A program made the position numbers and the translations under genes. The notes beneath the pieces were generated by a model. The model was given only the letters and a program-made list of their open reading frames with translations, made no database searches and had not been told where the DNA came from. Below are positions 30,878 to 60,400 of a stretch of 64,000 nucleotides of DNA, in pieces (position 1 is the stretch's first letter; each line of letters starts with the position of its first letter). The stretch is from a virus. The stretch spans positions 1-64,000 of the IMG/VR virus record IMGVR_UViG_3300025889_000107; one strand, written 5' to 3'.

Positions 30878-31099
30878 TTACCAATCAGGATATTCCCACA
30901 ACAAAGTGCTCTTTCTGCCTCTACTCACTCTCTTAACCGTACATTCTTTACATTCATATGAATATGCTGACGGTAATGTTTTTCTACCTTTTCGAGTCAA
31001 ATAAAAATCATCCATCAAACTTTTAACCACCCCACAAACTCTACATTTCCGATCAAAAAATAATAAATGTTCTAATTCAATTTCATCATCAATAGACAT
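30878..31099 (-). CDS. small zinc-knuckle protein, possible endonuclease remnant
   Basis: A 73-aa protein. CRVCGVVKSLMDDFYLTRKG and a later YECKECTVKRV give two CxxC pairs, as in the zinc part of phage HNH or endonuclease-VII-type proteins, but no HNH active site follows. It starts on the gp17 stop and ends 81 bases before gp18. It may be a truncated homing endonuclease or a small DNA-binding protein. Confidence 0.6.
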   Translation of the reverse strand: MSIDDEIELEHLLFFDRKCRVCGVVKSLMDDFYLTRKGRKTLPSAYSYECKECTVKRVSRGRKSTLLWEYPDW

Positions 31100-32265
31100 T
31101 ACCTATAATCCCACATATATGAACGATCTCCGTATTCGTCCGCATACCATCTATCTCCAGAATCATCTACAAAAGTTGTCTCACCGTTAATTCCATCTTC
31201 GATAAATCCAAAGGGTGCCATGTCCTGATCAATTTGATTCTTCTGCTCTTCATATATTCTCTTTCTTACATCATTCTCTGTCATCTCCTTAAAATATTCT
31301 TGTGCAACTAACCAAGAAAATATTACAAGACACATTGCCAAGTCATCATTACATCCTTCTTCTGCTTCAAAGGAGTTTCCTTTTTGTGAAAATGTAGTTA
31401 GTTCTGATATAATTTCATAATCAGATGCAAGTAATTTATCATCTTCTATAAGAGTTTTAAGATTTGAACATCCTAATTTTTTGACTGCTGAAGTTGTACG
31501 AACTCCAAGTTGAGTTTTTTTACCAGAAAATCCTGTTCCCACTATCTGTCCATTTCTACCTCTCATAGTTGCCATTAAAATATTTTCATATTCCAAATCA
31601 TATTGAAGAATACTAGCAACTTGATCACCAATATCATTAACTTCTATCAATAACCAGGATTGATTATAACCTTTTGCTACATCAAATATGATGTTAGGAA
31701 ATAACATTGGTTTGATTTCATTATTCCTATATTTTGCAACTACTTTATAAGGAAACTCTGTAATATCAAAAACAATAAATGCTGAATAATCATTACCAAG
31801 TCCACGGGCAACATCAACTGTAATTAGATAATTATGATCCTCAATAGGATTTTCATAAACATCTAATCCGGCATTTCTTTGTATTGGATCTTCATATACT
31901 AAAGTTTTGAGTTTTGATGGGTTGATAAGAGTATTGACAGAACCCAAGAACTCACAATTATGTGAAACTATATTGTTCGAATAGTAAAGATTGTCTTCGC
32001 CAACATCAAGTAAATCATAAAGATAAATTCCTTCTTCTACTATTTCATTATATAATACTTTCTTTTCTTGTAAAATATCATCAACTTTAATTGTTGATGC
32101 CTTAATTTTTTCTTTTCCGAAAGAATGATTATCTGAGCATTTTATTTCTGATCCGTCATCAAATATTATCCAATGGTAAAAAGGTTTATAAACTTTTTGT
32201 ATTCCTGAAAAATCTTTAAATCCATCAGGTGTTTTTACTTTAATATTTTTATTAATCTTAAACAT
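31099..32265 (-). CDS. 17: large terminase gp17, C-terminal part with split C-intein
   Basis: A 388-aa chain. Residues 1-103 are a C-intein ending IVSHN, and residues 104-388 are the C-extein starting CEFLGS. The extein is the RNase H-like packaging nuclease: LITVDVARG (first Asp), LIEVNDIGDQ and EGCNDDLAM (last Asp) match the T4 gp17 catalytic acids. Trans-splicing with the product of 32855-34720 would give full gp17. The start lies within the last codons of the endonuclease gene (8-base overlap), so the two are coupled. Confidence 0.93.
   Translation of the reverse strand: MFKINKNIKVKTPDGFKDFSGIQKVYKPFYHWIIFDDGSEIKCSDNHSFGKEKIKASTIKVDDILQEKKVLYNEIVEEGIYLYDLLDVGEDNLYYSNNIVSHNCEFLGSVNTLINPSKLKTLVYEDPIQRNAGLDVYENPIEDHNYLITVDVARGLGNDYSAFIVFDITEFPYKVVAKYRNNEIKPMLFPNIIFDVAKGYNQSWLLIEVNDIGDQVASILQYDLEYENILMATMRGRNGQIVGTGFSGKKTQLGVRTTSAVKKLGCSNLKTLIEDDKLLASDYEIISELTTFSQKGNSFEAEEGCNDDLAMCLVIFSWLVAQEYFKEMTENDVRKRIYEEQKNQIDQDMAPFGFIEDGINGETTFVDDSGDRWYADEYGDRSYMWDYR
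31957..32265 (-). other. split C-intein (103 aa)
   Basis: MFKINKNIKVKTPDGFKDFS begins the half and NNIVSHN ends it, before Cys+1. The block B-like motif is CSDNHSF. Size and sequence pattern match the atypically split TerL inteins such as AceL-TerL, which have a very short N-half and a long C-half. Confidence 0.9.
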
Positions 32266-32827
32266 TTTTCCAACACTCGTTTAAAATAATCTTCTTCAAT
32301 CCTTGAGGAGTTAAATTATATTCTTTGGCATATTCTCTACAAAATGCCTGAACATAAGACATTTTTTTGCCATTTTTCATAGTCATTCCAACATTGTGTA
32401 AATATGGTTTTTTATTATATAGTTTTCTTATTGTTCTTATTGTACTATCATCAATTTTTCTGCTAAAAACTCTGCCCTTTCTAGAGTTACTCATTTTCAC
32501 TAAAGTTTCTTCGGAAAAGCAATTTTTAATTCCTTTGTTCCAAGGAATATTACCTTTCTTAACTCCACCAATTCCTTTTCTTTCATAATCTCCAAAACCT
32601 TCACCACCAGTGGACTTGTTCCAACCATTTTTAAAAGTATTAAATTTTTCTATGTAAAAAATTTCTTTTTCCTTTGCTTTTTCTGGAATATCTATTTGCT
32701 CTTTTATTTCAAAAGTGTGTGGAGGTTTATTTCTTTTATGTTCTCTTTTTCTATCATCTAAATTTTGAGTTTGTCCTACATATTTGACTTTGTTGCTTGA
32801 ATCTTTAAGAAAGTATATATGATACAT
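32258..32827 (-). CDS. GIY-YIG homing endonuclease inside split gp17
   Basis: A 189-aa protein. MYHIYFLKDSSNKVKYVGQT is a variant GIY-YIG start, then LDDRKREHKR and E54 in KEKEIFYIEKF. NUMOD-like repeats (KKGNIPWNKGIK, SEETLVKMSNSRKGR) and a helix-turn-helix end (YVQAFCREYAKEYNLTPQG) would bind DNA. It lies between the two halves of the split-intein gene. The C-half gene overlaps its last codons. Confidence 0.88.
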   Translation of the reverse strand: MYHIYFLKDSSNKVKYVGQTQNLDDRKREHKRNKPPHTFEIKEQIDIPEKAKEKEIFYIEKFNTFKNGWNKSTGGEGFGDYERKGIGGVKKGNIPWNKGIKNCFSEETLVKMSNSRKGRVFSRKIDDSTIRTIRKLYNKKPYLHNVGMTMKNGKKMSYVQAFCREYAKEYNLTPQGLKKIILNECWKNV

Positions 32828-32835
32828 TTTATTAT

Positions 32836-32843
32836 TATTTATA
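32836..32843 (-). promoter_or_regulatory. T4-type late promoter in the split-gene gap
   Basis: TATAAATA on the minus strand, 9 bases before the endonuclease start. It could drive both the endonuclease and the C-terminal terminase half. Confidence 0.6.
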
Positions 32844-32845
32844 AT

Positions 32846-32861
32846 CCAAAAAACTCACAAT
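32846..32861. repeat. copy of the C-extein junction sequence in the gap
   Basis: Sixteen bases here match 14 of 16 at 31943-31958, the codons for the CEFLG start of the C-extein. In the +1 frame it reads CEFFGL then stop. It may be a leftover of the original junction or of the homing event. Confidence 0.65.
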
Positions 32862-34720
32862 CGTTCATATAAATTTTCCATAGAAGTTTTTTGTACTATT
32901 CCATTATCATCCAAAATTTCAATCTCTGTATCACCACCCAAACATTCAAACTCAACACGGAATTGTTCTTCTGATGTGTTTGCAATTGTCTGCTCTTTCC
33001 AAACAACATCTCTACCAGGAACTTCTGACCAGTGAACTTCTGTAGGAATATATTCGTTCTTATTTCTTTCCGCATCGTGCCACATACGGTAGAAGTGATT
33101 CATGCCGTGTGGTGTGGATACAATAATTACCTTTGTGCTTTTGCCAGAAGTAATAGTAGGATAAACAGATGCAAAGAAGGAGTCAGCGACGTGATTAGGG
33201 ACGAATGCGAATTCGTCGAGAAATAAGATATTGAACGACATGCCTCGGACAGCACTCGCAGATGTAGATGATGCCAATATCTTACTGCCATTTTCGAGTT
33301 CTATATTTCCTTTATTCCATACCAAAATACCTTGCTGCATCCATTTTGGTAAGTTTTCATATGCAGTTGATAATCTTGCTAACAATTCTCTGGCAGTAGA
33401 TGCTTTGTTTGCCAGAATACCAATGTTTACACTGTCATTAAAAAGTGCATAATGTAAAAGATATGATACTACAGTAGTTGAATTATGTGTGGGAATAAAA
33501 GTTCTACCACACAAAAATAAATGATCTTTACTATCAACCTGTATACAAGCAACAGGCACACTATCAACCTTTTCTATTTTGTGAATATAATGTCTACCTT
33601 CTTGTTTTCTTTCAGATTTTGTTGAATTGATATTTGCAATTTTTCTTGGAAGATTAAATACTTTCTCTTTGGTTGAAAAAGATACTGTATAGTAATAATT
33701 TCCTTTGATTTCTTTTCTTCTTATGTTTGATTTTATGCCAAGAGAAGAAAGCAACTCAACAACCTGTAAGATTAGATCATAATTTTTTTGATAGAACTCA
33801 AAAGATCTACTATTTTTTCTGATTGAACCATCAGTATCCATCAACCCACGAAGAAGTTCTAATCTGTCTTCATAAGAAGAACGAAGATATTTTAATGGGA
33901 TGTGCTTATTTTTAACTAAATTATAGTTTTTTAATTTTGTATATAAATTTTTTATTTTAAATCTAATACAATTATTATTATTTTTTTCATATTCAATATC
34001 AAATTTTGTTTTATAGAATTCGTAATCGTGTTTATGTGCAATAATTCTTCCATCAGATGAGTAACCATCACCTAACCATACGCCAAGCAAATAAGGATCA
34101 ATATTTAATTCACTTTTAATAAATTTGATTGGATTAGATTTATGAACATAAAGAGAACCTTGAACTCCTTTTCCTCTTTTATTTACTGATTTTTTTTGAT
34201 ATTGTTCAAATATTTCTTGAGAAGTTATAACTTTTTTTCCAGTTCTCCAATAAGAACTATCAACTTCCCATAAATGATCTGCATCTGCGACTATTTCTTC
34301 ACCATTATCAAAATATAATTTATAACAATTATGATTATGCATAGTTTCGGTTTTCATAGTAACCAAAACTGCATCACCAGTTGGAGAAAAAATTTCATCA
34401 CCAACCTTGAGATCTCCCATAGTAGTCCAACCAGTTGGTGTTGGAATTGGAGTATCTAACGATAAAGCCTTACCAGTCTGTCTTGGCATTTTACAGATAT
34501 TAAACCTGTTATTGTGAAAATTGTGAATTAGTTTCTCTTGAAAATGATATGGATGAAACTGTGTTAAACCTTCATCAAGAGAAACAATTTTAATATAGTT
34601 ATTTGCAAAATAAACCGGATCTTGTTTACATTTCAGAAACTCAATGATTTGATCCTCTGTAAACTCAATCGCAGTATTTGCTTTTTTTAATAATGGATTG
34701 CCAAGATATACGTCACTCAT
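32855..34720 (-). CDS. 17: large terminase gp17, N-terminal part with two inteins
   Basis: A 621-aa chain. N-extein residues 1-84 end in MPRQTGK, the first half of Walker A. Residues 85-413 are a full intein. Residues 414-592 continue the ATPase: STTVVSYLLHYAL, Walker B ILFLDEFAFVP and a coupling motif VSTPHG. Residues 593-621 are an N-intein. The extein parts here and in the C-half add up to about 548 aa, close to cyanophage gp17. It drives DNA packaging. The apparent frame break before 32855 is a gene split, not a frameshift, because both intein halves are intact. Confidence 0.95.
   Translation of the reverse strand: MSDVYLGNPLLKKANTAIEFTEDQIIEFLKCKQDPVYFANNYIKIVSLDEGLTQFHPYHFQEKLIHNFHNNRFNICKMPRQTGKALSLDTPIPTPTGWTTMGDLKVGDEIFSPTGDAVLVTMKTETMHNHNCYKLYFDNGEEIVADADHLWEVDSSYWRTGKKVITSQEIFEQYQKKSVNKRGKGVQGSLYVHKSNPIKFIKSELNIDPYLLGVWLGDGYSSDGRIIAHKHDYEFYKTKFDIEYEKNNNNCIRFKIKNLYTKLKNYNLVKNKHIPLKYLRSSYEDRLELLRGLMDTDGSIRKNSRSFEFYQKNYDLILQVVELLSSLGIKSNIRRKEIKGNYYYTVSFSTKEKVFNLPRKIANINSTKSERKQEGRHYIHKIEKVDSVPVACIQVDSKDHLFLCGRTFIPTHNSTTVVSYLLHYALFNDSVNIGILANKASTARELLARLSTAYENLPKWMQQGILVWNKGNIELENGSKILASSTSASAVRGMSFNILFLDEFAFVPNHVADSFFASVYPTITSGKSTKVIIVSTPHGMNHFYRMWHDAERNKNEYIPTEVHWSEVPGRDVVWKEQTIANTSEEQFRVEFECLGGDTEIEILDDNGIVQKTSMENLYERL
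32858..32944 (-). other. split N-intein (29 aa)
   Basis: Begins with Cys1 in CLGGDTEIEI and ends SMENLYERL before the stop. It follows the extein sequence FRVEFE. This very short N-half is the mark of the atypically split TerL inteins. It pairs with the C-half at 31957-32265. Confidence 0.88.
33482..34468 (-). other. 329-aa class 3-like intein with LAGLIDADG motifs
   Basis: Inserted between GK and ST of the Walker A loop. It starts with Ala, not Cys or Ser, and ends IPTHN before Ser+1. W67 in DADHLWEV, C308 in VACIQVD and T327 in PTHN fit the Trp-Cys-Thr triplet of class 3 inteins. The endonuclease motifs are LLGVWLGDGYSS and LELLRGLMDTDGSI. Insertion at this site would inactivate the ATPase until splicing. 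Confidence 0.9.
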
Positions 34721-42361: not shown

Positions 42362-42565
42362 TTATTTGCTTAAAAAATCTTTGAGTAAATTTTTTATTTC
42401 TTCAATATCTTTTTTCATATTATTCAACTCTTCTTTCTCAGAATTTTTTCGTTTCACTCTATTCTTATATCTATCATAAGCAATATCGTCACAATTAACA
42501 ATTGCTCCAGTATCCTCATCTCTGTAAAGATGAGGATGATCTTTAACTCTTATTAAATTCTTCAT
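42362..42565 (-). CDS. small coiled-coil protein
   Basis: A 67-aa protein. MKNLIRVKDHPHLYRDEDTG and AIVNCDD form an N-terminal part common in T4-like cyanophages, by memory of the pattern. The C-terminal half is a basic then acidic coiled coil. The start overlaps the stop of the 2437-aa gene (ATGA). Role unknown, perhaps virion assembly. Confidence 0.7.
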   Translation of the reverse strand: MKNLIRVKDHPHLYRDEDTGAIVNCDDIAYDRYKNRVKRKNSEKEELNNMKKDIEEIKNLLKDFLSK

Positions 42566-45500
42566 GCTAATGCGATTGTTCGAAGGTCACTAATAATTGG
42601 TGCATTTGCCTGATCAGTTCCTGACATAATAATTTTAATTGAATATCCACTAAATTCTCCCAAATCATTAGCACTAAACTCATATTCTAAGAACTGATTA
42701 GCAGAACTTGCAGGAACTTTAACATCAGATTTCCCGTTATTTAAAGATGGATCAACAACTCTAAATCCACCGTCAGAAGTTGCCTCAAGATTCTCATATC
42801 CAGGGAACAATTCAAATTCTTGTTCAATTTCTGATGAATCATCTCTAACAAGACTATAAAGAACTCTAATGTCTGAAGATGCAGGTCTATATGCTCCAAG
42901 TATAACTTTTAAGGAAGATGCTGGTTTGGATAAATTGACAGTATCAGAAACATAGATTGCTGAGTGTGGATCATTTAAAATAGAATTTACTCTATAATCA
43001 GTAGCAAAGTTTGTAACAGGTCTATTTAAATAATTTGATGCAAATTCAACAGTAGAATTTTCGAGATTTATAATTGGAGATAAGTTTTCATCTGTACTGT
43101 TTAGTGTAATTGCTGCAGTAAATGATCTTCTTCCAGAAACATTATTGAATACTGGTTGTTGCAATTCATTTACTCTAGAACATACTATTCTGGTCGATTT
43201 TAAATTATTGAATGAATTTAACTCTACAGGTTCTACTTCATTTAGAAGTTGGAAAGAAGTTTCAGTACCATCAATACTAGTTCCAGTTGTTGTTCTGATT
43301 ACGGCACTTACTGAGGTTGAATCTCCAGGTGCCTGAACAAAGAATCTTGGATTTAGTGAATTAAATTGGATATTCTCAGTTGCATAGACATCATTTCCAC
43401 CACCAACAAACTGTCTATTGAATGATAATTGTAAAGGTGTATCCACAATAGTATCTGAAGATCTGTCAGTGCCATTAACACTTCGATCTATTTCAATATA
43501 ATATCCATTAGAGTCAATACCAGTATCAGAAATATCATGAATTACATTATTAATTCTTCTTAAAGATACTCCATTAAACTCATATTTTTCGACTTTAGAA
43601 CCAACTTCATGCGATTCAGTTTTTCCTTCAACACCTCTACTAATATCTGTTAATTGATTTGAAGATGCCTCTTTATAACTTATAACTTCATCTCCAATTT
43701 TTACATATCCAGGATTAGAAGGACTAACTGTTAGTCCTTCGAAAGTTTCAAATACTGAAGAATCTTCAACAAATATTGTATCAGAACCGGATGATAATAA
43801 ATTTGCAGTAAGAATTGTTGGTGAAATATCAGATTCAACACCACTCAATTGCAACTTATTATTATTGGCATACATTCCATGATTAAAATGACTTACTTCT
43901 AAGAAATTTCCAGAATTTGTACCTGATCCTTCAGTCACACTTGTAATTTGAGTAGTACCTAAAGATACAATAGTTGTATCTGTATCATAATAACTTACTC
44001 CAATACCAGTTCGGAATGCTTTTGGTGAAGAATCGCCTTCACCTTGAACATTAGTCAGATAAAGTGTATCTCTTCCATTGATTGCATCAATACTAATTAA
44101 TGCACCTCTACCTGTTGTGTTACTAGTGATAGTCACTACATCACCAACTTCATATCCATTTCCATTAGCAGTTTTTGTAAGACCGGTGATTGCACCATTT
44201 CCATCTACACTATCGATAGTAAATTTTAATCCAGTACCAAATCCGACAATATTAGTTGTTGGTCTGTTAGATTGAGTTGTATAATTTACACCACCATTAG
44301 TAGTTGTAATACCACTGACCGGTCCACCCGCATACTCAATATATCCATAACTATTTGGAATAGAACCGGCAATTTTTCTACCAGTATTTAAAATATCAAT
44401 CAGTCCAGAATCTGTGAATGTTGTAACTCCAAGATTGACAGTTTTTGGTAGACCTGTAACTGGGTTTGCAAGTAAATTATTTACATATCCATTACTTTGA
44501 TCTAAAGGTGGATTTCCAAAATGAGCAATACCAGTATTTGCGGTGAATTTTGCTTTGTAAAGTTTAAATTTAAGATCTAATTCTTGTGTAGGAGTCCAAA
44601 TAGATCCATTTTGAGACTTAAACAAACTACCAAGTGCGAATTGCTTAGTGTAAATGACTGCTTCTGCATCAGGTAGAGATTGTGTATTAACAGTTCTCTC
44701 TCCCATTTTAGCAATCCAAACTTCATATTCATCTGAAGTAGGTGCAAGTAAAACTACAGCATATTCATTTCCTGGAGCAAGATATTTTGGTTCATCAAAT
44801 GTAACTCTTGTTGCAGTTTCTCCAGTTGTTGATGTTGTAATTTGATCTGGATATAATGTTTTAGATTCACCAACCAAATTTAGAGTTGGGATGCCAAGTT
44901 CTACTGTTCTTATTTGAACTTCAAGAGGTTCACTACCTGCTGGTTTGTTGGCAAAAAAGATATCCAATTCGGTAAGAACTACACCCTTATCATCACTACT
45001 AAATCCATTTAAATCTGGAGCATCAATATCTCTACCAACAACAAATGATTGCGCAAGAGGATCAGATCTTCTCGCTCTAAAGACCTCACGTCTAGTTGTT
45101 GTTACAGTTGTAGTACGTCTTACTGTAGTTTCAATAGTTCTGGTTATTGTAGTTTGTATTTGTCTTGTTAGAAGAGTTCCAACAGCACTATAAGATCCTT
45201 GACCGGTAGAAATTAACTTACTTCCAGGTAATGGTTTGGTATTTGTAGAACTACTAGTCAATAAGTATGTCTTTTTACCAGTAAGAAGTCTTGGATTTGG
45301 TGCTGGATTTATATGTGGATTCTTGATAAAGAATGAACCAAAAAGATCTCCATAATTATCAGTTATCAATCTTAAATCTTTTACATATGCAATTGCACCA
45401 CTCGATTGTCCAACGATCTTTGCACCTTTGGTAACATACCCAAAAAATCTTCCCTGTGCTTCATCAGATAATGAATTCAAATCAATATTTAATGTTTTGG

Positions 45501-48500
45501 ATGATTGACTGTAAGAATTTGGTAAATTCTCCTTTCTTACATATGGATTAATGTTATAAGTTCTTGATGGTGAATTGAAGGGACCTTCTTTATGATTTGA
45601 TGTTGCAAGTCTAAACCGACCTGTTTCTTGTCCACCTTTATATACTTTTACTGTTTCACCTGACGTAAATGATCCTTGTAAAGTGCCAGATGTCTCTAAA
45701 GATGTGCTATTAGCAATTTCTATGAGTTTCGGTATAAAATCTACATTACTATGATTATCTAAGAACTGATAATGTCTTGTTAAAGGTTTCAGTGATCTTC
45801 CGAAGAAAGAAACATTTCTAGATCTAATATACTGCTCATCGCCACTTGAGATTAGAACATCTCTAGATCTTACATTAACTCTAGTTCTAGAAGTTCTTGA
45901 AGTTTGCACTCTAGAACTGGTATTAGTTTCAGTTGTTCTTGTTGTCGTAACTCTGGATCCTCTTCCAGTTTCAATTCTTACTGGAGGAAGAGTTCTGGTA
46001 TTATTAATAGTGTTAGTAACAACATTAGTAGTTCTTCTTGTTATATTCTGTACAGAAGGGGGAATATAAATGGTTCTAATCCAAAAATCATTTTCTGGAG
46101 ATAATTTTACATTTCCAACATATTCTACTACATGGAATGGATTAACATTTTCAACACGAGTAGCAAGTGGTTGCTCCAACCAACCGATAGAATCATATTT
46201 TAGAGTAACAACATTTCCAGTTTTTTGAATATTTGGGTCTAATAACTCAAAGTTGGTTGTTAAATCTAAATTTTCTTCAGAAATTTCTGATGAAGGTAAA
46301 ACTCTTTGTCTTAAGGAATTTGAAAGAAGTCTTGGTCTCAATTGACCTTCACTAATATCTGCTGATGTTAGATTTTCATCACTACCTGTTCTATCTGCGA
46401 AATTATCTACAAAGAAACCGGACTTGAATCTATTATTGCCATCTTCATCTTCAATACGCAATGCTTCAGTACTAACCTCCAATAAACTTAAAGATGTAAC
46501 CCTTTCTAAGTTTTCTATTCTATCTTCAAGTTGACCAATATCTCTCATGGTATATCTTCTATTGTCAACTAGATCGATAGAAACATCATCGGGACTATAA
46601 AGATATGGTGGAAGTATAATCGTTGCCAATTCCATCAAACTTTGATCATTACTTGGAGATGCTTTTGGATCTTTTGCTGAAACACCTTTACTAACAATAA
46701 GATTTTCAAACTTATCAAGATATAATTTATCAATTCTAGGTAGATAAAAATCAAACCCAATTAAAGAACTCTCACCAGGTTTTAGATTATAATCTGTAGT
46801 AAATGTTCTTGAACCAAAATTAAATGGTGAAGCAGTTGTTGAAGAATAATCGACAACTCTTGGTCTAAAGTCTAGTGTATCAGAAGCTCTAACATTATTG
46901 GGACCAATTGTAGGAATATCATTTAAAAATCTATCAGCATCATAACTTAAAACAGTAAATACATCTCCAGTATCTGATGCAGGAACTATATAATGATCAT
47001 AAACAACTAACAATCTCTTAGATGGTTCTGAATCTGTTGTTCTGATCAATCTTGAGTAATCATAATATTCATTTTTTTGACCACCATCAAGAACAAAATT
47101 GTCTGTTACGTTATTATACTTTCCTAATGTAATAGACTGAACCGTAGAAATAATATTAGATTCTTTGAATGTTACGGTTTCTCCAGCAATAAAAGTATTT
47201 TGATTTAGATAAACTACACCTAATTTATTGGCCTTAAGTGCATCAAAATATGATTCTGTAGAATTCTCATTTGTTACTACTCTTGCAACTGTTCCACTCT
47301 CAGAACCAATTATATTTTCTCCAATAATAGCATCTGTTCCAACATTGGATATTGAAGAGAATTCAATTGCATCTAGTGTAGGATCTGCAGTATTCGTTGA
47401 TTCATATACTACAAGAACTTTTGCTACATCAGGAACATTTAATGAAATTTGATCGTCTTGAACTCTAAGTCCATAATATTGATTATATGTTAGTCCATCA
47501 TTGATTGATATACTAGATGCAGATCCAGATTGTGCTAATTTTGAAAGATTAACTACTTTTACTGCACTTCTAGTAAATTTTTTAATTTTACTTTGAATTC
47601 CATTCTTCTTCAGTGTTACATTTACAATACTATTTCCACCACTAGAATTCAGATTAGTAACGGCAATACCAGTTCCTCCCCCAGTAAGAGTAAATGCATC
47701 AGAAGTTATTGTTCCGATTCCACCACCATTATAATGAATCGAATATCTTTCTTGGTCGAATGTCTCATAAAATGAACTAGTAAGTCCAGTATTAGATTGA
47801 TTTAACTCAAGTTCAACATCATTAATGTTTACCTCAATTTGTTTAGATATTAATAATTGAGAATTAGAAAGATCAACAGAGGAAATATTAGATTCTGGAA
47901 GATTTGCATAAAGATATCCATTTTCACTATTTCTTATTTGTGCTTTTCTAAGATTTGCCGTATAATTTCCAGAAGAAATTGCGGTTCCATTAAATACTCC
48001 ACTAACACTACTAGTAGAAGCAATGCCAACTGATGACAAATCTGATGCAATTGATGTAACTCTATTATACCTTAAAGTACTTCCCTCTATGACACTAATT
48101 ATGTCATTTATTTTAACCCCAGAGAATAATTTTCCCGGACTTCTTGCAGTTGATATTCCACTATCAGTCTCAACAACAACTTCTGATATTCCATTAGAGA
48201 ACTTTTTAGAACTTAATACTGCATCTGCATTAAAATCTGGAAATCCTCCCCCGAAAAGACTTGATTGTTTAACAGATTTGAGTTGGTCAATTGTATTTTG
48301 TGTAAAACTTGCAATTGTTAATGCAGTTTCAATTCCATTAACAATCAATTTTTCCCCAGTTACAAAAGTTCCTGAAGTTTGACTGAGATCGAAAGATGTT
48401 GAAGAAGAACCAGCAACAACAAAACCACTCGCACCACTACTCTTTCCTTTTATAAAAGCAGATGTTAAGAGTGTTGTACTTACATTAAAGGTTATATTTG

Positions 48501-49875
48501 TATAAGTTTGAATATCATAAAGATATAAATCCCATTGAGTTGCTGCACCAGAATATGCAGCATCAGTCAAGTTAAAGGTATATACTCTCGCAGCACCAAT
48601 TATCGACCCCCCTCCACCAAGTTGATCATATAAATCTAAAGTTTCATTTTCTTTTGGAGCACCACTAACATTATTAACTCTCAATAAATGTCCCATCTCA
48701 AATGGGATATTAGCACCACTTATACTTTCAGTATCTCTTGGTTTTTCTACATCTATAGCAGTTTCTGTATCTAAAGTAACATCATAACCATCAACATATG
48801 CTCTTCCAGGACTTACCTGTAGACACATTAAATCATCCGATGGAGTATTTCCTTGTTCTGTAGTTTCTCCCTCTAAATATAAACCATCATTATCGATTTG
48901 ATCATTTAACGAATTGAGTGCTTTAACACCAAACTCATCTACGGCATAATGACCAGATTCATCAAATGTTCTTTCTGCAATATAATCTCTTATTAAATTG
49001 TAGACAGGTTTATTTTCAATTTTTTTAATTCTTCCTTCATCTACTCTCAATATCTCTACAAAATCAGTATCTGTATTATTAGATATTTCTTTTTTTGTAA
49101 GTGTTAATGCTATCTTTAATCTGTCTGCTCCTGGTGCTGCAAAATTAGTGAAACCACTTGCATTATCATATAAAGACGAATCATCCTTTGCATTTACAAT
49201 CGTTTCGGATATTTTTAATCCTACTCTATACGAAGGAGTATTGGTATAATAATCTAATATAAGTGTTTGCTTAGAAACTTCTACAAATGTTCCTCTGATA
49301 AAATAAACACCATTATCAATAGATGCTGCTGAACCAACAAATGTTGCATCCTGAGAGATTAATGATGCAAATGCGGTTCCTGCGGTAATTGTAGTATTAC
49401 CATATGTAACATTTTCACTTGCAAATAACTGTTCTCCATCTTGAAATGTATCTACATCTGCATCATCTCCAGATTCTCCATATTTTACATAAATTGTAAT
49501 GTCAGTTACTAAATCACTATCAGATGTAAGTGCAACTTCTTGAATAGATGCTGTTACACCCGAAAGCTGTCCTGTAATTTTCTTTCCAATAAAATTCTTA
49601 ATATAAACAGAGATATCTATACCTAAATTGACAGCATTTAATTTTACTGCAGAAAACTGATTATCAAAAGTTACAGATCCTGGAAGAACCATAGATCCTT
49701 CTTTAAAAATATTGCCACCAAAAGACTCTACTTGGTTCTGTAAGATGGATTGAAGAGTTGTTAATTCTCTAGCCTGAACTGGATATCCTGGTTTAAATAA
49801 AACTTTATAAAAATTTTTATCCCCATCAAAATCATCATAATATGGGCTTATATTTAAGTCTGTTTTTTGTGCCAT
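42562..49875 (-). CDS. 2437-aa DUF4815 tail/baseplate protein
   Basis: The N-terminal 80 residues carry the DUF4815 signature: FKPGYPVQARELTTLQSILQ and FGGNIFKEGSMVLPGS. The long middle holds Ser/Thr-rich beta regions and a coiled segment (RDIGQLEDRIENLERVTSLS). Arg/Thr-rich stretches near residues 1290-1350 and 1590 are odd, with RTTTVTTTRR-type repeats. The end contains GGxxY-P beta repeats. Such proteins are tail-fibre or baseplate-linked structural proteins of cyanophages and may decide host contact. Confidence 0.85.
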   Translation of the reverse strand: MAQKTDLNISPYYDDFDGDKNFYKVLFKPGYPVQARELTTLQSILQNQVESFGGNIFKEGSMVLPGSVTFDNQFSAVKLNAVNLGIDISVYIKNFIGKKITGQLSGVTASIQEVALTSDSDLVTDITIYVKYGESGDDADVDTFQDGEQLFASENVTYGNTTITAGTAFASLISQDATFVGSAASIDNGVYFIRGTFVEVSKQTLILDYYTNTPSYRVGLKISETIVNAKDDSSLYDNASGFTNFAAPGADRLKIALTLTKKEISNNTDTDFVEILRVDEGRIKKIENKPVYNLIRDYIAERTFDESGHYAVDEFGVKALNSLNDQIDNDGLYLEGETTEQGNTPSDDLMCLQVSPGRAYVDGYDVTLDTETAIDVEKPRDTESISGANIPFEMGHLLRVNNVSGAPKENETLDLYDQLGGGGSIIGAARVYTFNLTDAAYSGAATQWDLYLYDIQTYTNITFNVSTTLLTSAFIKGKSSGASGFVVAGSSSTSFDLSQTSGTFVTGEKLIVNGIETALTIASFTQNTIDQLKSVKQSSLFGGGFPDFNADAVLSSKKFSNGISEVVVETDSGISTARSPGKLFSGVKINDIISVIEGSTLRYNRVTSIASDLSSVGIASTSSVSGVFNGTAISSGNYTANLRKAQIRNSENGYLYANLPESNISSVDLSNSQLLISKQIEVNINDVELELNQSNTGLTSSFYETFDQERYSIHYNGGGIGTITSDAFTLTGGGTGIAVTNLNSSGGNSIVNVTLKKNGIQSKIKKFTRSAVKVVNLSKLAQSGSASSISINDGLTYNQYYGLRVQDDQISLNVPDVAKVLVVYESTNTADPTLDAIEFSSISNVGTDAIIGENIIGSESGTVARVVTNENSTESYFDALKANKLGVVYLNQNTFIAGETVTFKESNIISTVQSITLGKYNNVTDNFVLDGGQKNEYYDYSRLIRTTDSEPSKRLLVVYDHYIVPASDTGDVFTVLSYDADRFLNDIPTIGPNNVRASDTLDFRPRVVDYSSTTASPFNFGSRTFTTDYNLKPGESSLIGFDFYLPRIDKLYLDKFENLIVSKGVSAKDPKASPSNDQSLMELATIILPPYLYSPDDVSIDLVDNRRYTMRDIGQLEDRIENLERVTSLSLLEVSTEALRIEDEDGNNRFKSGFFVDNFADRTGSDENLTSADISEGQLRPRLLSNSLRQRVLPSSEISEENLDLTTNFELLDPNIQKTGNVVTLKYDSIGWLEQPLATRVENVNPFHVVEYVGNVKLSPENDFWIRTIYIPPSVQNITRRTTNVVTNTINNTRTLPPVRIETGRGSRVTTTRTTETNTSSRVQTSRTSRTRVNVRSRDVLISSGDEQYIRSRNVSFFGRSLKPLTRHYQFLDNHSNVDFIPKLIEIANSTSLETSGTLQGSFTSGETVKVYKGGQETGRFRLATSNHKEGPFNSPSRTYNINPYVRKENLPNSYSQSSKTLNIDLNSLSDEAQGRFFGYVTKGAKIVGQSSGAIAYVKDLRLITDNYGDLFGSFFIKNPHINPAPNPRLLTGKKTYLLTSSSTNTKPLPGSKLISTGQGSYSAVGTLLTRQIQTTITRTIETTVRRTTTVTTTRREVFRARRSDPLAQSFVVGRDIDAPDLNGFSSDDKGVVLTELDIFFANKPAGSEPLEVQIRTVELGIPTLNLVGESKTLYPDQITTSTTGETATRVTFDEPKYLAPGNEYAVVLLAPTSDEYEVWIAKMGERTVNTQSLPDAEAVIYTKQFALGSLFKSQNGSIWTPTQELDLKFKLYKAKFTANTGIAHFGNPPLDQSNGYVNNLLANPVTGLPKTVNLGVTTFTDSGLIDILNTGRKIAGSIPNSYGYIEYAGGPVSGITTTNGGVNYTTQSNRPTTNIVGFGTGLKFTIDSVDGNGAITGLTKTANGNGYEVGDVVTITSNTTGRGALISIDAINGRDTLYLTNVQGEGDSSPKAFRTGIGVSYYDTDTTIVSLGTTQITSVTEGSGTNSGNFLEVSHFNHGMYANNNKLQLSGVESDISPTILTANLLSSGSDTIFVEDSSVFETFEGLTVSPSNPGYVKIGDEVISYKEASSNQLTDISRGVEGKTESHEVGSKVEKYEFNGVSLRRINNVIHDISDTGIDSNGYYIEIDRSVNGTDRSSDTIVDTPLQLSFNRQFVGGGNDVYATENIQFNSLNPRFFVQAPGDSTSVSAVIRTTTGTSIDGTETSFQLLNEVEPVELNSFNNLKSTRIVCSRVNELQQPVFNNVSGRRSFTAAITLNSTDENLSPIINLENSTVEFASNYLNRPVTNFATDYRVNSILNDPHSAIYVSDTVNLSKPASSLKVILGAYRPASSDIRVLYSLVRDDSSEIEQEFELFPGYENLEATSDGGFRVVDPSLNNGKSDVKVPASSANQFLEYEFSANDLGEFSGYSIKIIMSGTDQANAPIISDLRTIALA

Positions 49876-51467: not shown

Positions 51468-54400
51468 TTATACTTCTCTTTTAGGTAATGCCCCAGTTTT
51501 TCTAATACCAATACCTCTTCTCTGAATTGTTGGATATGTTGTCAATCCAGATACGGTATTTCCAGTAACTCCGATTGATATTGGGTTTGCAGATCTTGTT
51601 CCTCCTTCTAATAATCCCCATGAGTATTTTCCAACAGGATTTAATATATTTCCAGTAGTTCCAAGACCAACTATATTGGAATTTGAATCTACATTACATG
51701 TAATAATTCCAATTGCATCATTATTAGATATGGCAGAAACATAGTAAACATTATCTAGGAAAGTAGTTCCAATTCCAACAACTGCAGAATTTGAATCATC
51801 AATTGAGGTAACTCCACTACCAATTTGAGTATCATAGATATAAATTGGATAACCTGTTGATAATCCACTGAAGTTATTACTATCAATTACTGTAAATTGA
51901 AGTGCTAAAGGAACACCAATTCCAGATGCTGTTGTAATACCAGTTACTATTCCAGAGAAACCTTTAATATTACTAAATCCTGTAATTTTTTCAATATTAA
52001 GATTTGGAGTTTCAGCAAATATTATGGGAGCAACTGTGTATCCAAGTCCAGGATTGGTAATTGTAGTTCCAGTAACTATCCCATTCGTAATAGATGCCGT
52101 TGCTGTTGCTGTTGTTGTTCCTATCCCTACAAATTTCAGATTTATTGTCGTTTGATTTGGTAAATATCCAAAACCAGAATTAGTCGTAGTTATTCCATTT
52201 ACAGATCCATTTCCATCAATCGAAGCAGTAAATAAAGCGGTGACTGGATTAGTATCTTCTATAATAACCGCATCTAATGGAGTAGAAGCATCTGTATAAC
52301 CATTATCAGTTTCATAATTAAATAATTCTATATTATCGACAAATATTTCAGTATCGGTTGTAGACACATCTTTGATAATTCTTGCAGTTGGGAAGATTAA
52401 CGGTTCTAATACATCTCTTGATTTATAAACATATTGGCCATTAATTTTCTTATCTGTTTTTTGCTTAGTCCAAGATAAAGGTTTGTAATTGGTTTCATCA
52501 ACTCCCAATCCAGTATAACGATTAGTCTCAAATTTATCGGAGAAAGTTAAGTTATAAACTGTTCTTTCATCTTGCGTTATTGTATTTGGATAAATGTTAT
52601 TACTTATAACTTGAACAACATCACCAGTTTCTATAGTTGGTATAACATCATCAGATAATGTGGAATCAGTTCCATCAACACCTTTATAGAAGTAAATTTC
52701 AACTTCATCTTGAGGTAGTGGTGCTCTTGTAAATGCAAATGATGTCCCACCTTCAAAGATGTAATTTTCTACTGGTTTTTGCAATACTCCATTAACAAAA
52801 ATTATAAGAACATTGTTAATATTTTCTTCAATTGGAGAATTTTCTTGAGGTTCAAAACTCAGAAGTGCTGAATTATAATTAAGTGGGAATCTAGTTCTTG
52901 ATCCATCTTGTAAGTTTTGAATAGAATCAATATAATCAAGTTCTCCAAATTCCCAAGCAGCAAAATTATCAGAATAAGTATCAACTACTGTAATCTCAAA
53001 ATCTGATATTGGAGAAGATAGAGAACCATCAGTGACTAATCCAACTGGTTTGAATACATCACCTCTTCTGAAATTATATCCTGGTCTTGAAAATTTGACT
53101 TCAGTTACTTCGAATAAAGTGGATCCTATTCCCGTAGATCCACCAACTTTTAAATCTACTAATAAACCATTTCCCGTATCAGTTGTTGCTCCAATTCCTA
53201 ATCTAGAAACACCAATTACGGGAAGATTTTTATATGATGGATCAGAAACAAATATTTCTGGATTTACATAGTTAGTTCCGGCAGAACCAACATTAAATGA
53301 TAAAGTTCCACCAATGCCTATAGAAGAAACCGAAACTATTGCTCCTACACCAGCACCTCCTCCAGGACCTACATTGATTTGAACTGTATTCAATGTAGTT
53401 GCTGCAATTGATACTTGTTGATTGTGGATAGGATCTCCTCCGGATAATCCTCTTCTCAATTTAGTTTTGGAAATTGCTCTTGGATATGGATGATTTGTTG
53501 TATGACTGTCCTTAGAACAAGTAAACACTAATCCATCAGTAGCAATACCAATCGTATTTGATGTTGTTAATCCATGATTGAGAATAGTTAAAGTCAAATC
53601 TCCTGATACAGAATTATAAACAGCGTTTGTTGCAGTATAAGTGCTACCTGTATTAGCAGTAATTGAATTTATTCCGGAACTTACAAATTTATGATCATAT
53701 TCCAAATCTACTACAGTTACTCCGATAGAAACTAAACCATTATATCCAGAACCATGTCCTGTCGTTCCTAATCCAACAGATACAATAGAACCTCCAGCAC
53801 CAACAACAGCAGTCACAGAAGCACCTACAAGTGGTGCAAACCCAAGTCCAGGTGTAGATCCATATGAAACTATAATTCCACCTCTAGGGACTTCATTTGC
53901 ATTAACATCATAGTCAGAAACAACATATTCGAGAGGAAATTCTCCCGGTCTAGTAATTCCAGAGAATTCAACAGTAGATATTCCTGCACTAGAGTCTTCT
54001 AAGATTTGATAATTAAATCTTGTTGGATTATTATCAGTTTTGGGTGATTGATAAATGTTATTAATAAAAACTAAACCACTTGCACCTTCTGTTCCAATTC
54101 CTGTAGTATTTGCACCACCAACTTTTAGTGTGAATGTTCTTCCAATTCCAGTAAATTCATCAGATAAATCATCATAAACTTTGTTATTGTCATAATTAGA
54201 TTTGAAAAATACTCTACCAGTAAATGATGAGGTTTCAAAATCTAAATTATTTTTTGTTTTTGCGATTTGTGGATTACCTCTTGGTGCTTCTGTGAAATAA
54301 ATTTCACTATCTTCAATATTAAATGAACCTTTATGAATTCTTACTAAGGTAGAATCTGTATGAGTTGATGCAGAAGAACCTACAAATCCTCTCTTGACTT

Positions 54401-57400
54401 CAACTAAATTTATACTCCCTTCATTTGTAATCGGTCCTACATTGGTTGTTCCCAATCCAACATTAGTTACACCCATGTATTCATCATCAACTTTCAATAT
54501 ATCTCTTGGATTTATTGTTGAAATTCCACTTAGTGATACAATACTTGTACTATTGTTTAGAGAACCACCAACATTTCCACTCAAAGTATGTGTAATCTTA
54601 GTAGGTGCTATTGGATATTGAACCAATTCATCAACAGTTAAGATGCACTTAGTGTTTCTTTCTTTCATAGTGAATCTATGAGCATTTCCTTCTCCAAGAG
54701 AAGTAAATGTTGTTCCAATTCCTGCAGCAGCTGCTGTAGTTGTTATTGCTACTTTGAAAGTATTTTCGGTTAATTTGATAGCATATACTGTTGATGGTAA
54801 TTCTCCACTAGAAGTAACCACTGCACTAGTTCCAACACCAACGATTGTAGAGTTTGGAGTATATATTAATTCTTCTCCAGTTACAAAGAAGTGATTTTGA
54901 ATTGTAAATATTCCAGTAGATGCATCTAATGCAGATGAATTTGGATTAAATTTCTTTGAGAAAATTGGAATGCCATTATCAGTTAATGTGAAATTATCTT
55001 TATTGATTCTAGATAGATTAATAGCATTATAGAATTTTTCATCAATACTTTCGGTTACAGCACCATAAGATAAATCTAAAGGTTCATTAACAACATCTAC
55101 TTCAGAATAAAATGATTTACTGAATACTTCAATATCAATTTGACCTGTTTGATTTGCATCTGGGAAGAATTTAAGTATCAGATCACTTCCAGATATTTCT
55201 CCACCAAATGTTCCAATACCAGAAGCACCATCTAATTCACTATCATCATTAGATACTGAAAGGAAAGGTAATTGCTGAGTATAAGCATCAGTTCCTTCAT
55301 CAATTATCATAACCTGATGAAGTGCTTTTGTAGAACCTATACTTACTTGAATTAAAGATTTTGATGCATTAAATAAAGATCTATCTAAAGTTTGAATTGT
55401 TGTAGAGGAAGCACCTACTGTAGAATAATATCCAGAATCGTAAATTATACTTCTTTCTTGACCATCAGATTGATCAGAAGATTTAAATCTATATGTACCA
55501 ATTCCAGTAGATGTTGTTCCAAATCCAACAATATTAGTTCTTATCTTAAGTTGATCAGAAGAAGTATTTTCGTGTATTAGTGATAAAACTCCACTTCCCA
55601 AGTCAGTGCAAGTGAATATACCTATTTGATTTCCTGTTGAAGAACTTAAAACATTGCTATCAATATAATATTCTGACATGAAAGTGTTTGTCCCTGCAAT
55701 AGAAACATACAATCTCACATAATTCATGTCATTGGTTTCCGTATTGATCACCTGTGCATTAACATAAAGAGATTCGAAATTATTAGCATCTAAAGAAATA
55801 ATTGTTGTAGTTCCAATTCCTACACTAGTATTTTCTATATCTACAGAACCTGTCAAATTAACAAAACCTATAGACTGCGTTCCGACACCAGATAAAGTTG
55901 AATTAAATATTTGCTTAATTACTTTTAGATCATAATTTGTATTCAATGCATCATTAGGAACGAATCTTAAGAAGGTTTTTTCACTTTCGTCTGTAAATAA
56001 GTCAAAAATACCATAATTAAATTCTTGTCCAGATATGGACTCATTTTCAACAATGACTGATTCTAATTCATTTTTTAAAATAGTAATATCTGTTAACTGA
56101 AGTTCAGTACCATCTTCACTAGACACTCTTAATAAGTAATTGAAATATGTTCTATTGTCAAGTTCGTCTACTAATAAAAATTCTGTAGATTCAGATTCTG
56201 AGTTTGAGAATTGATTTTGAAGATCATCAATTGTTAATACATTAAGATTTTTTAATTCTGTATAATTTGTAAGTCTTTTAGTTTTTAATTTTAAAAATTT
56301 TGATTTTGAATCTACAACATCAACATCAATAACATTATCAAAATTATTAATAGTATCTACTCTTTTCTCACCAATTACATCATAAACTATAGTAATTCCA
56401 TCAATAGTAGTTGTTAAACCTGCACTCGTATTTGAAGATATTCCAGTATCTGCAAAATTTTTCAATCCACTTGTGTGAACTAAACTTTCTACCGGAGATT
56501 GCTGATCTTTATATGTTATTGAACTCTTTACGGAATATGATAAATTTTGATAATAGTCATTATCTGGAGTAACTTGAAAATCTTCACTTAATTTTCCAGT
56601 TTCAGTATCCCAACCAATATCTTTTGTGTTAGAATATCCAACATTAAATGTTCCTTCATTTAAATTTAAAGACTTAATTGTTGCGACAGTGCCAGATTCA
56701 TTTCCAGTAACAACTTCACCTATTGACAACTCATATGATCCAGAAACCTTTAAAGAATCTCCATCACTTCCTGTAACTTCCAAATCTCTTATTATCTTAT
56801 TTGAAGATAAAGTTTCTCCAATGAAAAATTTGGATGGTTCTTGAACTACCTTAAAAGTAGGATAATCATTTTTATTAATTATTACTCCACTAAAATCCTG
56901 AATTGTTTTTGCAATCCCAGTATTTGTAGTGAATTCAGATACACCAATAGAGACTGTATCATTAACTCCCGCAGTGCTATATCCCTTTACCTTAAAGAAT
57001 TTGTATCCATAATCAGAAGAATTGAATCCATCTCCATCTGAACTATATTTTACAATACCTTCAATGAATACTTCATCTCCCTCAGCAAATGGTGGAGTAT
57101 TAAAAGTATTTCCAATACCAGGTGTTGATATTGTGCATGTGAAAAAATCCGTATTTGATGACCCTACCTTTTCAATTGCAACACCATTATTATTATTTGT
57201 TGCAAAAACTTCTACAGTTTCATCAGGTAAACCTTTTGGTTGTATTTTAATATCTAAAGAAGAAATTGCAGATCCTGTTATTTTTGGTTCAATCAATCCA
57301 GAATTTATTACATTTCTTGTTGTGGGATTGACGAGAGTAATAAATGGTGGAGATACATAACCTTCACCTCCACTAACTATTGATATCTGACTTAATGCAT

Positions 57401-60400
57401 TTGAATCTTTTGTTACAATGTTGGGAGAAACATTGACCTTAGGTCTTAAAGTTTTATCTGAAGAATAAGTAAATCTGTTATTGATGACTCTACTTTCTTT
57501 TATAGATCCTACATTTATTGATTTTGCATTTGCAATTAAATCTATTCCAGAAACAGAGTTTGTAGATTTTAAAGAAGGTAATTTTTTATATCCAGTTCCT
57601 GAAGATATAATACTTAAAGATTTAACTGGACCAGATGGAGAAGTTGATGTCGTTGAGTAATCTAATGTATCACATTCTGTTGAACCATAAGAAAGTTTTT
57701 CTGGTTTTTTGTCAAGATTTACATTGAACGTTGTTGCTGCAACACCACTAATAACATATGAATTGTTATAATCACTATCAATATACTTAATACTTGAATA
57801 GTTATTAACATCAGTATCAGATTTAACTAATACTCCATCTTTTTCTAAGGTATAGAATAATTCACCAATTTGTGAGTTATAATCTAATGTAAGAGTTGCT
57901 GTAGATGTTACTCCAACAGTTCCTACCCCAGATACACTGAAAGTATTTGTAGAACCAGTAGAAACAAATTCATTATTAAACTCTTTGTCCTGATATAATC
58001 TCAGACTATAATTTATCAGTGAAGAATCTGAAAGGTCGAATACTAAATTATTATTTTTGACTGGTTGTAATTGTGGATTAATTAAGGATATTGTTTGTGA
58101 AGAACCTCCTGTAGAAGCAAAACTTACAACTGTGGGAGGATTTTGTTGAGAATCTATTAAAGTTTCGCAGAGGTTAATTTTATTTCTATTAACTTTATAA
58201 ACAAAATATTCATTATATCCACTATCTTCATAAAGAACTTTATCACCAGTTACTAACTCATGATCTGTAATTGTGATTTCATTAGTTACTGTATTAATTC
58301 CTGTTGAATTAAATCCAATTGGATTGACTACGATATTATCAATTTCTGATTTATAAAGAACACGAACTGCTGTTGAAGTTCCAATACCCACTGAAAGATT
58401 TGGTTGAACATCTAATGTTACCGTATCTCCATCTTGAAGTTCATGAGATGTTGATACTGAAACGGTTACTACATTCTTATCCACATCTCCCAATATTTGA
58501 GTATAATTGGATTCAAATGAATACTTATCACTATCATCTCCATTATCATGGAAGAATAATTCTTCACCTGTAATTGCAGTCTTTAATCCAATAAGACTTG
58601 GACTTTTCTTAACAACGAAAAGATTACTTGGTATACTTACTGGGACAGATGTTCCATCAGTAGAAACATTTAAGGTTGTTCCACCATTAGTATTAAATCC
58701 GACCGGTTGATTTGTTGTGAAAGGATGATTTTCAATGTAAATTCCTTTTGTAGGAATACTTCTAGTTACAGTTGAAATACTGCCAAATGTAAATGATGTG
58801 CTGTATCCAACACCACTTATAGTTCCAACACCAACAGATTCTCTAGGATTGAAGAAAACCTTATCATTTACTTTTGAATCAAATTTATCTACAGATTTGG
58901 AAATTGTAAAAGAATCTGGAGAGAAAGTTACTGCAGTTCCAACAGTATGTGATACACCTGCCAACCCTCTTTCAATTCTGAGAATGTTTTGATTTTTAAA
59001 TACTTCAAGAACTTTTAAAGTTTCTGTTCCAATATTAATACTACTACCAACAGATACTTGTTCTGGAATTGGAGAAACATAAATTTCTGTCGTAAATCCT
59101 ACAGATGCAGATGTTATAGTAGAAAGACATCTTCCATTTGCATAAGAAGGAACTGTGATTTGATGTGTTCCATTAAGTACCGATAGATTTGTAGAAAATC
59201 CAGATATAGTTACATAATCTAGATTTAAAAGATCATGGTTGGGTAATATTGATACTTTTACTCTACTTGTAGATTCCCATGTAAAAATAGAATTTAAATA
59301 TTCAGTTGAATTTGTATTTAATTCTACGAGACTCTTTCCTTTTACGGAAGCAACACTAACATCTAAACCACTTCCTGAAGTATCAGTATTATCAAATGTT
59401 AATTTATCTCCAACTTTGTAATTATTACCAGAATTTTCAATATCTATAGATTTTACAGAGTCTGATGTTACAGACACTACTTCTATTTTTTGATCTAAAA
59501 CATCACTAGTTTCATTAATAAAATCATAATCAGCCTTTAATTCTGATACTTTGTAAGGAAAAGTATTTCTCAATAAATTTGAATTATTGAAATCAAATGA
59601 TTGATCCAAATCTGAATTGGAAATTAATTTTGATTTATACTTATTACCTATAAAATATGGAAATTGGTCTATTGTAGCATGATATACATAAACACCATTC
59701 GGATACTCTACATTTTTTTCATATCTACCATTATATTCATCCAAGTCTCCAACATTATTAAATTGATAATCCTCAACAAAAAATCCAGCATCAAATCCAG
59801 ATGGTCTATCTTCAACATTCGATGTATTTGAGATATACCCAGATTCTAATGATTTTAGTCCTGATGATGTATCTTCAGGGTTTGTATATCCATAGGGTCC
59901 ATAAATTGGATTGCCATCATAAGACCATCCAATTATGTTTGACCTGCTTGTGGGATTTTCTTTAAAAGAATTTCTCAAATTCTCAAAATACTTTGATACT
60001 GAATATTGAAGTTTATCTTTACCTTCTAATAAAACTTCTCCAGTAGTAAATCTTGTAATATTATCATTTAAAGTTAATTTTCTTATTTGTGGATCAATAA
60101 AGGAATTTTTTCCTGATGAAACAACTTGAATTTTTGTATTTGATGCTGAATACCCAATACCAGTATTCAGAACCTTAACTTCTGATATTTCCCCATTATT
60201 AATTATTGCTCGCAATTCTGCACCAGTTCCAGAACCAGAAACAATCAATTCCGGAACAGAATAATATTCACTTCCAACAAAACTTGTAAAAACATTAATT
60301 ATTTTTCCATCAACGATAGATGGTGTTAATTGAGCAGATTTACCATTCTTTATAGAGATTATTGGTTTTTTCTCTAAGTTTAAAATTGTAGATCCATATC

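Follow-up and report, generated by a model that had tools for sequence, protein, structure and literature searches.

Fractured genes, in which a free-standing endonuclease gene lies between the halves of a split intein, were reportedly described by Dassa and colleagues in 2009 on phage-like metagenome contigs, with emphasis on Vsr-like endonucleases, and Liu and Yang are said to have found in 2003 one split intein together with cis inteins in a single protein, the split dnaE product of Trichodesmium erythraeum. The gene considered here is gp17, encoding the large terminase subunit (TerL), in a viral stretch of 64,000 nucleotides (positions 1 to 64,000 of IMG/VR record IMGVR_UViG_3300025889_000107; hereafter the window). 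It contains a cis intein as well as a fractured split intein, the latter with a GIY-YIG homing-endonuclease gene between its halves, and its product is a phage terminase, whereas that of dnaE is a cellular DNA polymerase. The two inteins are very probably mobile homing elements stacked in one gene, and not a lock on DNA packaging.

Two inteins in one TerL have been published before. As far as the available parts of the papers cited in this paragraph go, Cyanophage Mic1 TerL has two, apparently in frame, and control of packaging is proposed for them (PMC7156551), so that this idea is not new; the crAss Delta group has two in one TerL gene, stated to be in frame (PMC7886860). Both belong to other phage families than the window. 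The terL of IBB_35 is reported to carry an intein and an intron (PMC3322345). Mycobacteriophage TerL has P-loop insertions (sites a and b) and class 3 inteins at other sites, with splicing tested for five inteins and cutting for two; these belong to families TerL1 and TerL6 and, unlike in the window, no split intein is mentioned in the part available (PMC5050341).

The split intein of the window shares with AceL-TerL, GOS-TerL and the consensus CatTerL (6dsl) an EFE^CE-type junction (^ marks the insertion point), short N- and long C-halves and class 1 residues, and differs from AceL-TerL and GOS-TerL in sharing its gp17 with another intein; the available parts of the reports on those inteins do not discuss genomic context (PMC11766414, PMC13014065). 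Among T4-like phages, Aeromonas phage PX29 (gp17A/17B, GU396103) has an annotated split gp17 intein with GIY-YIG at the ATPase-nuclease boundary, as in the window, but there the GIY-YIG domain is fused to the C-intein and Walker A is uninterrupted. In the literature searched, which was mostly without subscription papers, no description was found of a terminase that combines a cis with a split intein. For that literature the statement in the preliminary description of this locus that no gp17 with both kinds is known holds, but among deposited genomes the isolate Vibrio phage VP-1 (MH363700; L266, 1837-5179) has a comparable pair at the two sites filled in the window, a cis intein interrupting Walker A and a GIY-YIG intein at E^C, both unannotated. 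The C-half of the latter lies in another frame (possibly a frame error). Unlike in the window, the cis element of VP-1 is a Cys1 mini-intein of 179 amino acids (aa) and the GIY-YIG domain is fused to the N-intein. Its relative VAP7 (L312) has the cis intein alone.

Architecture of the gp17 locus

The gene lies on the minus strand, as an N-terminal chain that carries the cis intein and ends in a stop codon behind the N-intein, then the GIY-YIG gene, then a chain of C-intein and last extein (Table 1). The joined exteins form a protein of 548 aa that is identical at 523 positions, without a gap, to the inteinless gp17 of Synechococcus phage S-SKS1. The extein lengths of 84, 179 and 285 residues given in the preliminary description are thus correct to the residue, and its account of one cis and one split intein, the latter of AceL type with a CEFLGS junction, agrees with the anatomy and with the matches to the engineered halves CatN and CatC; the need for two splicing events to yield a contiguous gp17, which it also stated, would follow from this anatomy. 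Pfam matches at the locus are Terminase_6N (4.3e-17), LAGLIDADG_3 (2.3e-13) and Terminase_6C (1.9e-12). S-SKS1 gp17 matches the T4 gp17 structure 3ezk at 1.8e-99, with residues 5-268 aligning to the ATPase structure 2o0h and residues 270-490 to the nuclease structure 3c6a, and the spliced window protein has the same two domains in collinear order. The E^C junction corresponds to S-SKS1 residues 263/264, which places the split at the ATPase-nuclease boundary of T4-type gp17.

The adjoining 17.9 kb is also S-SKS1-like (86% covered, 94.5% identity) and, because both gp17 and its neighbourhood resemble that phage, the window is assigned to a marine cyanophage of the S-SKS1 group. All reading frames of the TerL locus are intact. 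A contig from a different metagenome (L088) has the same arrangement at 99.985% identity across 6591 bp, with two differing bases, one internal and the other the last base of the contig. The preliminary description had raised the possibility of a second gp17 gene; the record (66,071 bases) contains a single Terminase_6N match, as does each of eight relative contigs (57-188 kb), but all of these may be fragments, and a second copy is possible.

Empty and filled sites among relatives

A census was made of 304 loci (303 from IMG/VR and the window), forming 238 clusters at 99.9% identity. Most were gathered by intein queries, among the matches listed, and the counts are not frequencies. Because the two C-inteins cross-match, site states were assigned by position, at the P-loop (P site) and at E^C (E site). 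Both sites are empty in 62 clusters; 46 have only an AceL-type split intein at E^C, and 41 have only a class 3-like cis intein at the P-loop, as do three more with an additional cis intein at the C-motif. The cis intein is combined with an AceL-type split intein in 17 clusters, the window included, and with a GOS-type split intein in six. A different P-loop element, termed the P-split family, occurs with an AceL-type intein (three clusters), a GOS-type intein (three) or an empty E^C (one). The remaining 56 clusters are unresolved at one site at least: at the P-loop with E^C empty (14) or AceL-type (26), at both (five), or at E^C with a cis (nine) or P-split (two) intein. In the best 80 loci retrieved by the nuclease extein, all 61 resolved P sites are empty, and E^C is empty in 77, has a C-intein at a contig edge in two (L240, L012) and is unresolved in one.

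Two side observations concern additional inteins. In six loci (L180, L188, L192, L226, L231, L232), the class 3-like cis intein is accompanied at E^C by a split intein that resembles GOS-TerL and starts with Ser1; four of the six also have an endonuclease-like gene of DUF559 type (Pfam on L180 and L232). The additional C-motif intein of L209, L213 and L234, likewise a cis intein, is inserted at VS^TP, ends in HQ and contains LAGLIDADG_3 in L213.

Close relatives differ in which sites are filled, and the inteins are far more alike than their flanks. The cis intein of the window and that of L093 are identical at 986 of 987 nucleotides (nt), against 92.5, 92.0 and 89.1% for the three exteins. For the split cassette in L091-L094, identity is 94-99% in the N-half, 96-98% in the GIY-YIG gene and 98% in the C-half, against 90-93% in extein 2 and 89% in extein 3.

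In several pairs of empty and filled loci, though not in all, the mismatches concentrate around the site, a pattern expected from homing (offset 0 is the junction). L092 and L269 share the P-loop split element, and the E^C cassette is present in L092 and absent from L269. Their mismatches lie at 9, 12, 15, 18, 42 and 48 upstream and at 2, 5, 26, 57 and 71 downstream of the junction; farther out, only 927 and 3211 follow upstream (3224 nt compared), and the next downstream is at 1193. L091 gives the same pattern with other end points. L086, whose extein proteins are nearly identical to those of the window, has the split cassette and an empty P site, at which its mismatches to the window fall 14-48 upstream and at 2 and 11 downstream, the next being at 171 and 377; when 12 mismatches were placed at random over 537 nt, 1 of 20000 draws produced so long a gap. 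L195, with only the cis intein, is nearly identical to L150 and L146, which have both elements; here no mismatch occurs in 500 nt upstream, and four of six (L150) and six of eight (L146) downstream lie at 38-86. Because L086 is split-only and L195 cis-only beside relatives with both, the double state appears, from these comparisons, to have been built in both orders of filling.

An extein tree was built with 165 rows, comprising S-SKS1 and 164 of the 238 clusters, after removal of clusters with an unresolved site, a C-motif intein or insufficient extein. The P state changes 24 times (shuffled mean 51.2) and the E state 29 times (shuffled mean 52.9). The double state requires 22 changes for 24 of the 165 rows, with a shuffled mean of 22.8, and 16 of the changes are forced by well-supported branches. 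A stable, inherited design of cis plus split intein was rejected on account of this scatter. A positive association between the two sites was likewise considered and dropped. Of the resolved clusters obtained through the C-intein, 13 of 48 have a filled P site (22 more unresolved), versus 0 of 60 obtained through the nuclease extein; a filled E site is present in 20 of 63 clusters obtained through the cis intein, versus 2 of 76. These sets were chosen by intein, and independent tree pairs show no positive association (median p 0.625).

In the mechanism proposed here, gp17 would host two independent mobile inteins with 537 bp of coding sequence between them. The cis intein, with its embedded LAGLIDADG endonuclease, occupies Walker A, and the cassette at E^C divides gp17 into two coding units; AceL-type class 1 trans-splicing would rejoin their products. 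A functional 548-aa gp17 would need both splices, in either order, and either element would spread by cutting an empty site into which it is then copied.

Several observations weigh against this mechanism. L092 and L269 diverge widely beyond 1555 downstream, with 106 mismatches in 2580 nt compared without gaps. Within 75 nt of the site, L150 and L146 have one of six and three of eight mismatches to L195 where about one is expected, a small excess; L093 has 5 of 20 to L269 (2.7 expected) and 4 of 29 to L017 (4.0 expected), which is little or no clustering. The isolates VP-1 and VAP7 support presence and absence of the element but lack a tight mismatch cluster, and as most relatives are metagenome contigs, assembly chimaeras could mimic clustered flanking mismatches. 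One full-length GIY-YIG copy is interrupted by a stop codon (L113, 3999-4565). In addition, one comparison of the GIY-YIG gene (with L208) gives a ratio of nonsynonymous to synonymous substitution rates (dN/dS) of 0.91, in an ungapped and probably misaligned comparison.

The cis intein at Walker A

The cis intein is inserted between K and S of Walker A (GK^ST). It begins with Ala, so that an N-terminal nucleophile is lacking, and ends in THN followed by Ser at +1. Residue 1 is Ala in 66, Ser in 5 and Met in 2 of the 73 loci with both junctions; all 73 end in THN and none has an internal stop. W67, C320, T327, H328 and N329 are unchanged in 26 of 26 aligned sequences, the first three presumably being the Trp-Cys-Thr triad (B:12, F:4 and G:5). 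The closest solved sequences are the mycobacterial DnaB-1 class 3 inteins 6bs8, 6rix and 6riy (phmmer 1.2e-25 to 1.5e-24). The AlphaFold2 model, with a mean predicted local distance difference test score (pLDDT) of 90.5, is matched best in Foldseek by PI-SceI-type bifunctional inteins, and its splicing domain matches class 3 DnaB inteins with target template modelling (TM) scores of 0.81-0.87. Because the residue-1 nucleophile is missing, W67, C320 and T327 are invariant and the class 3 DnaB inteins are homologous, splicing most likely follows the class 3 route via Cys320. The five copies with Ser1 (L141, L180, L230, L232, L233) speak against extending this route to all members, and class 1 splicing is possible there.

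For dN/dS, ten relatives were compared per part and undefined values were omitted; most values lie at 0.04-0.22. The cis intein gives 0.08-0.15 (the pair with L093 has no synonymous change), compared with 0.02-0.08 for extein 2. As a side observation, L003 (293-1282) and L116 (3793-4782) have a divergent (46%) P-loop cis intein with Met1 next to an AceL-type cassette.

The split intein and its GIY-YIG cassette

The element at E263^C264 measures 988 bp and comprises the N-intein, a late-promoter-like box, the GIY-YIG gene and the C-intein. The C-intein matches CatC (6dsl_B) at 7e-55, or at 3.6e-57 when CEFLGS is included, and the N-intein with its EFE extein matches CatN (6dsl_A) at 5.1e-11. 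Cys1 is present in all 73 readable AceL-type loci and the SHN/CEFLGS junction in all 85 readable loci. By these sequence features the element is a class 1 intein of AceL/CatTerL type, whose halves are predicted to be rejoined by trans-splicing. In each of the 81 E^C inteins with both exteins resolved, the N-half, 28-37 aa long, is terminated by a stop codon, and none is contiguous. The dN/dS of the C-intein is 0-0.12.

As in a fractured gene, the endonuclease gene of the window stands free between the intein halves. Its 189-aa product matches PF01541 (1.4e-6) and the homing endonucleases of phrog_314 (3.2e-17), and the catalytic-domain residues Y5, Y16, G18, R26, H30 and E76 are unchanged in 21 of 21 sequences. 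The catalytic domain of I-TevI is the top fold match (E 2.3e-3) of a moderate model (pLDDT 75). The frame is intact in 72 of 73 full-length copies, dN/dS is 0.14-0.22 apart from the outlier mentioned, and the stop codon overlaps the ATG of the C-chain by 8 nt in the window and in 69 of 69 measured loci. Among 50,697 phage records, a set from which very close records are possibly omitted, the GIY-YIG gene has no match at 1e-5 and the C-intein none at 60% identity or more (81 weaker).

Of 69 leaders between the N-intein stop codon and the start of the GIY-YIG gene, 67 contain the box TATAAATA, which we take to resemble a T4-type late promoter; the surrounding spacer varies in sequence and length. 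Ten copies lie on the minus strand of the 64-kb window and none on the other strand. A putative late promoter at this position would give the endonuclease and the C-chain a separate late transcript.

Split inteins were also seen in other genomes. In HY03 (KR269718; L267, 1507-4359) one lies after Walker B (DE^CAF) with an open reading frame (ORF) containing a TnsA-like domain between its halves; F367 (MT863725; L268, 1485-2813) has a C-half at the DE^CAF site. The E^C split intein of Vibrio phage EniLVp02 (PP209424; L314, 2390-4676) has overlapping halves with no endonuclease gene between them.

Alternative explanations

The preliminary description held that terminase activity is kept back until both splices are done, that is, that the two inteins are retained since double splicing delays or conditions DNA packaging. 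The positions would suit such a role, as the cis insertion interrupts Walker A and the split places ATPase and nuclease on different chains, and AceL-TerL is reported, in the available part of the source, to be of low affinity with a temperature optimum (PMC11766414). The splicing residues are conserved and under purifying selection, but selfish elements residing in an essential gene should show such selection just as well. Retention for such a purpose is hard to reconcile with a double state scattered at about the shuffled mean, with the absence of any intein from S-SKS1 gp17 and of one of the two from L086, and with the uniformly empty P sites in the loci retrieved by nuclease extein. Regulation of packaging by the pair is consequently considered very unlikely, and the inserts look mobile instead.

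It is more improbable still that the two chains work as a terminase without splicing or that one of them is dead. Aeh1 nrdA is reported to work in pieces without splicing (available part of PMC3653736), but the invariant Cys1 and SHN/CEFLGS junction, the homology to the engineered trans-splicing pair CatN/CatC and the retention of both halves in 81 of 81 resolved E-site inteins all argue against a comparable state here. Least credible of all is a pseudogene or an artefact in which an assembler fused two alleles. The source is a metagenome and close relatives carry several different alleles of the locus, but the independent contig L088 is the same save for one internal and one terminal base, the frames of the window are intact and the isolate VP-1 has an analogous double. 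Two mobile homing elements stacked in gp17 remain the preferred reading.

Coordinates of the features

Table 1. Features of the gp17 locus in the window, further TATAAATA boxes and spans of three-chain TerL loci in related contigs
Feature	Position	Strand	Remarks
N-chain ORF	32855-34720	-	621 aa
C-chain ORF	31099-32265	-	388 aa
TerL extein 1, 84 aa, to Walker A ...PRQTGK	34469..34720	-	ungapped match to S-SKS1 gp17 residues 1-84
Cis intein at GK^ST, class 3-like, LAGLIDADG domain, 329 aa	33482..34468	-	Hint + LAGLIDADG
TerL extein 2, 179 aa, remaining ATPase domain	32945..33481	-	Pfam and ungapped S-SKS1 alignment
Split-intein N-half, 29 aa, Cys1	32858..32944	-	CatN 6dsl_A match; TGA stop 32855-32857
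TATAAATA late-promoter-like box, GIY-YIG gene leader	32836..32843	-	conserved in homologous leaders
GIY-YIG homing-endonuclease gene, 189 aa, between intein halves	32258..32827	-	PF01541, phrog_314, I-TevI fold
Split-intein C-half, 103 aa, own ATG, ends SHN	31957..32265	-	CatC 6dsl_B match
TerL extein 3, 285 aa, nuclease domain	31102..31956	-	Terminase_6C; S-SKS1 gp17 residues 264-548; stop 31099-31101
Nine further TATAAATA boxes	2033, 2743, 3529, 17928, 22537, 25166, 26300, 42343, 51448	-	possible late promoters
Three-chain TerL, L091	3-4064
Three-chain TerL, L092	985-5070
Three-chain TerL, L147	3782-7215
Three-chain TerL, L271	863-4420

Next to the locus, a 73-aa endonuclease VII-like ORF (30878-31099, minus strand; phrog_4723, 4.2e-33) has an ATG that overlaps the TerL stop codon. 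Very large proteins are encoded elsewhere on the minus strand of the window, one of 4059 aa with a YHYH domain (51468-63647) and one of 2437 aa with DUF4815 (42562-49875).

Loss of endonuclease genes and three-chain terminases

Seven of the 81 resolved E^C inteins have no endonuclease gene and are still split, four of them AceL-type (L008, L107, L140, L197) and three GOS-type (L188, L231, L271). The TATAAATA box is missing in the four AceL-type loci. A remnant of the GIY-YIG gene, its 3' end, is retained in L107 and L197, where it aligns with scores of 53 and 49 that none of 500 shuffles reached; in L008 and L140, no score for such a remnant exceeds all 500 shuffles. The P-loop split family has seven resolved members, of which six are split and one, L273, is contiguous. 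In L273 (5821-6342) the endonuclease gene is lost and the P-loop intein reads through, its halves looking as if joined through the start of the lost endonuclease, and a GOS-type N-half is present at E^C. With this contiguous copy, the idea that fracture runs one way only was dropped.

Four loci (L091, L092, L147, L271) have split inteins at both the P-loop and E^C, and hence a TerL in three chains. L273 and L275 were considered as further cases and set aside, the P-loop intein of L273 being contiguous and L275 showing only the end of a P-loop intein. The order in L092 is a 124-aa N-chain, a 347-aa endonuclease-like ORF (DUF559 at 2.7e-6, weak Vsr), a 323-aa middle chain consisting of C-intein, ATPase part and N-intein, a 189-aa GIY-YIG protein and a C-chain whose ORF has 393 aa, or 388 aa when counted from the homologous start, all intact. 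L091 resembles L092, with an N-chain that begins at the contig edge; L147 follows the same plan with the first endonuclease ORF reduced to 90 aa; and L271 has the three-chain plan with a GOS-type second site without endonuclease. As the P-loop C-half matches CatC at 3.6e-11, the split inteins of the two sites are taken to be related but distant.

On balance, split inteins in marine T4-like gp17 probably remain mobile, as cassettes of 988 or 1448 bp that comprise both halves, and stack on other inteins. The four three-chain loci, of which L091 and L092 are close relatives of the window, each have split inteins of two different families and probably need two trans-splices without cross-pairing. 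Ligation of three segments with two split inteins is an engineered scheme in the available part of the source (PMC12707363), of which the three-chain TerL, if true, would be a natural counterpart.

The locus in the window is a well-preserved example and not a one-off, and the stronger result lies in its relatives. Arguments about the origin, movement and persistence of split inteins have so far drawn on scattered loci. The present set allows a comparison of close relatives in which the same site is empty, filled, or filled with the endonuclease lost, and both fates of a split intein after that loss, split or contiguous, are open to study. Multi-segment protein ligation could draw on the two natural split inteins of the three-chain TerL, which would have to work side by side, and that TerL would also test whether splicing limits DNA packaging.

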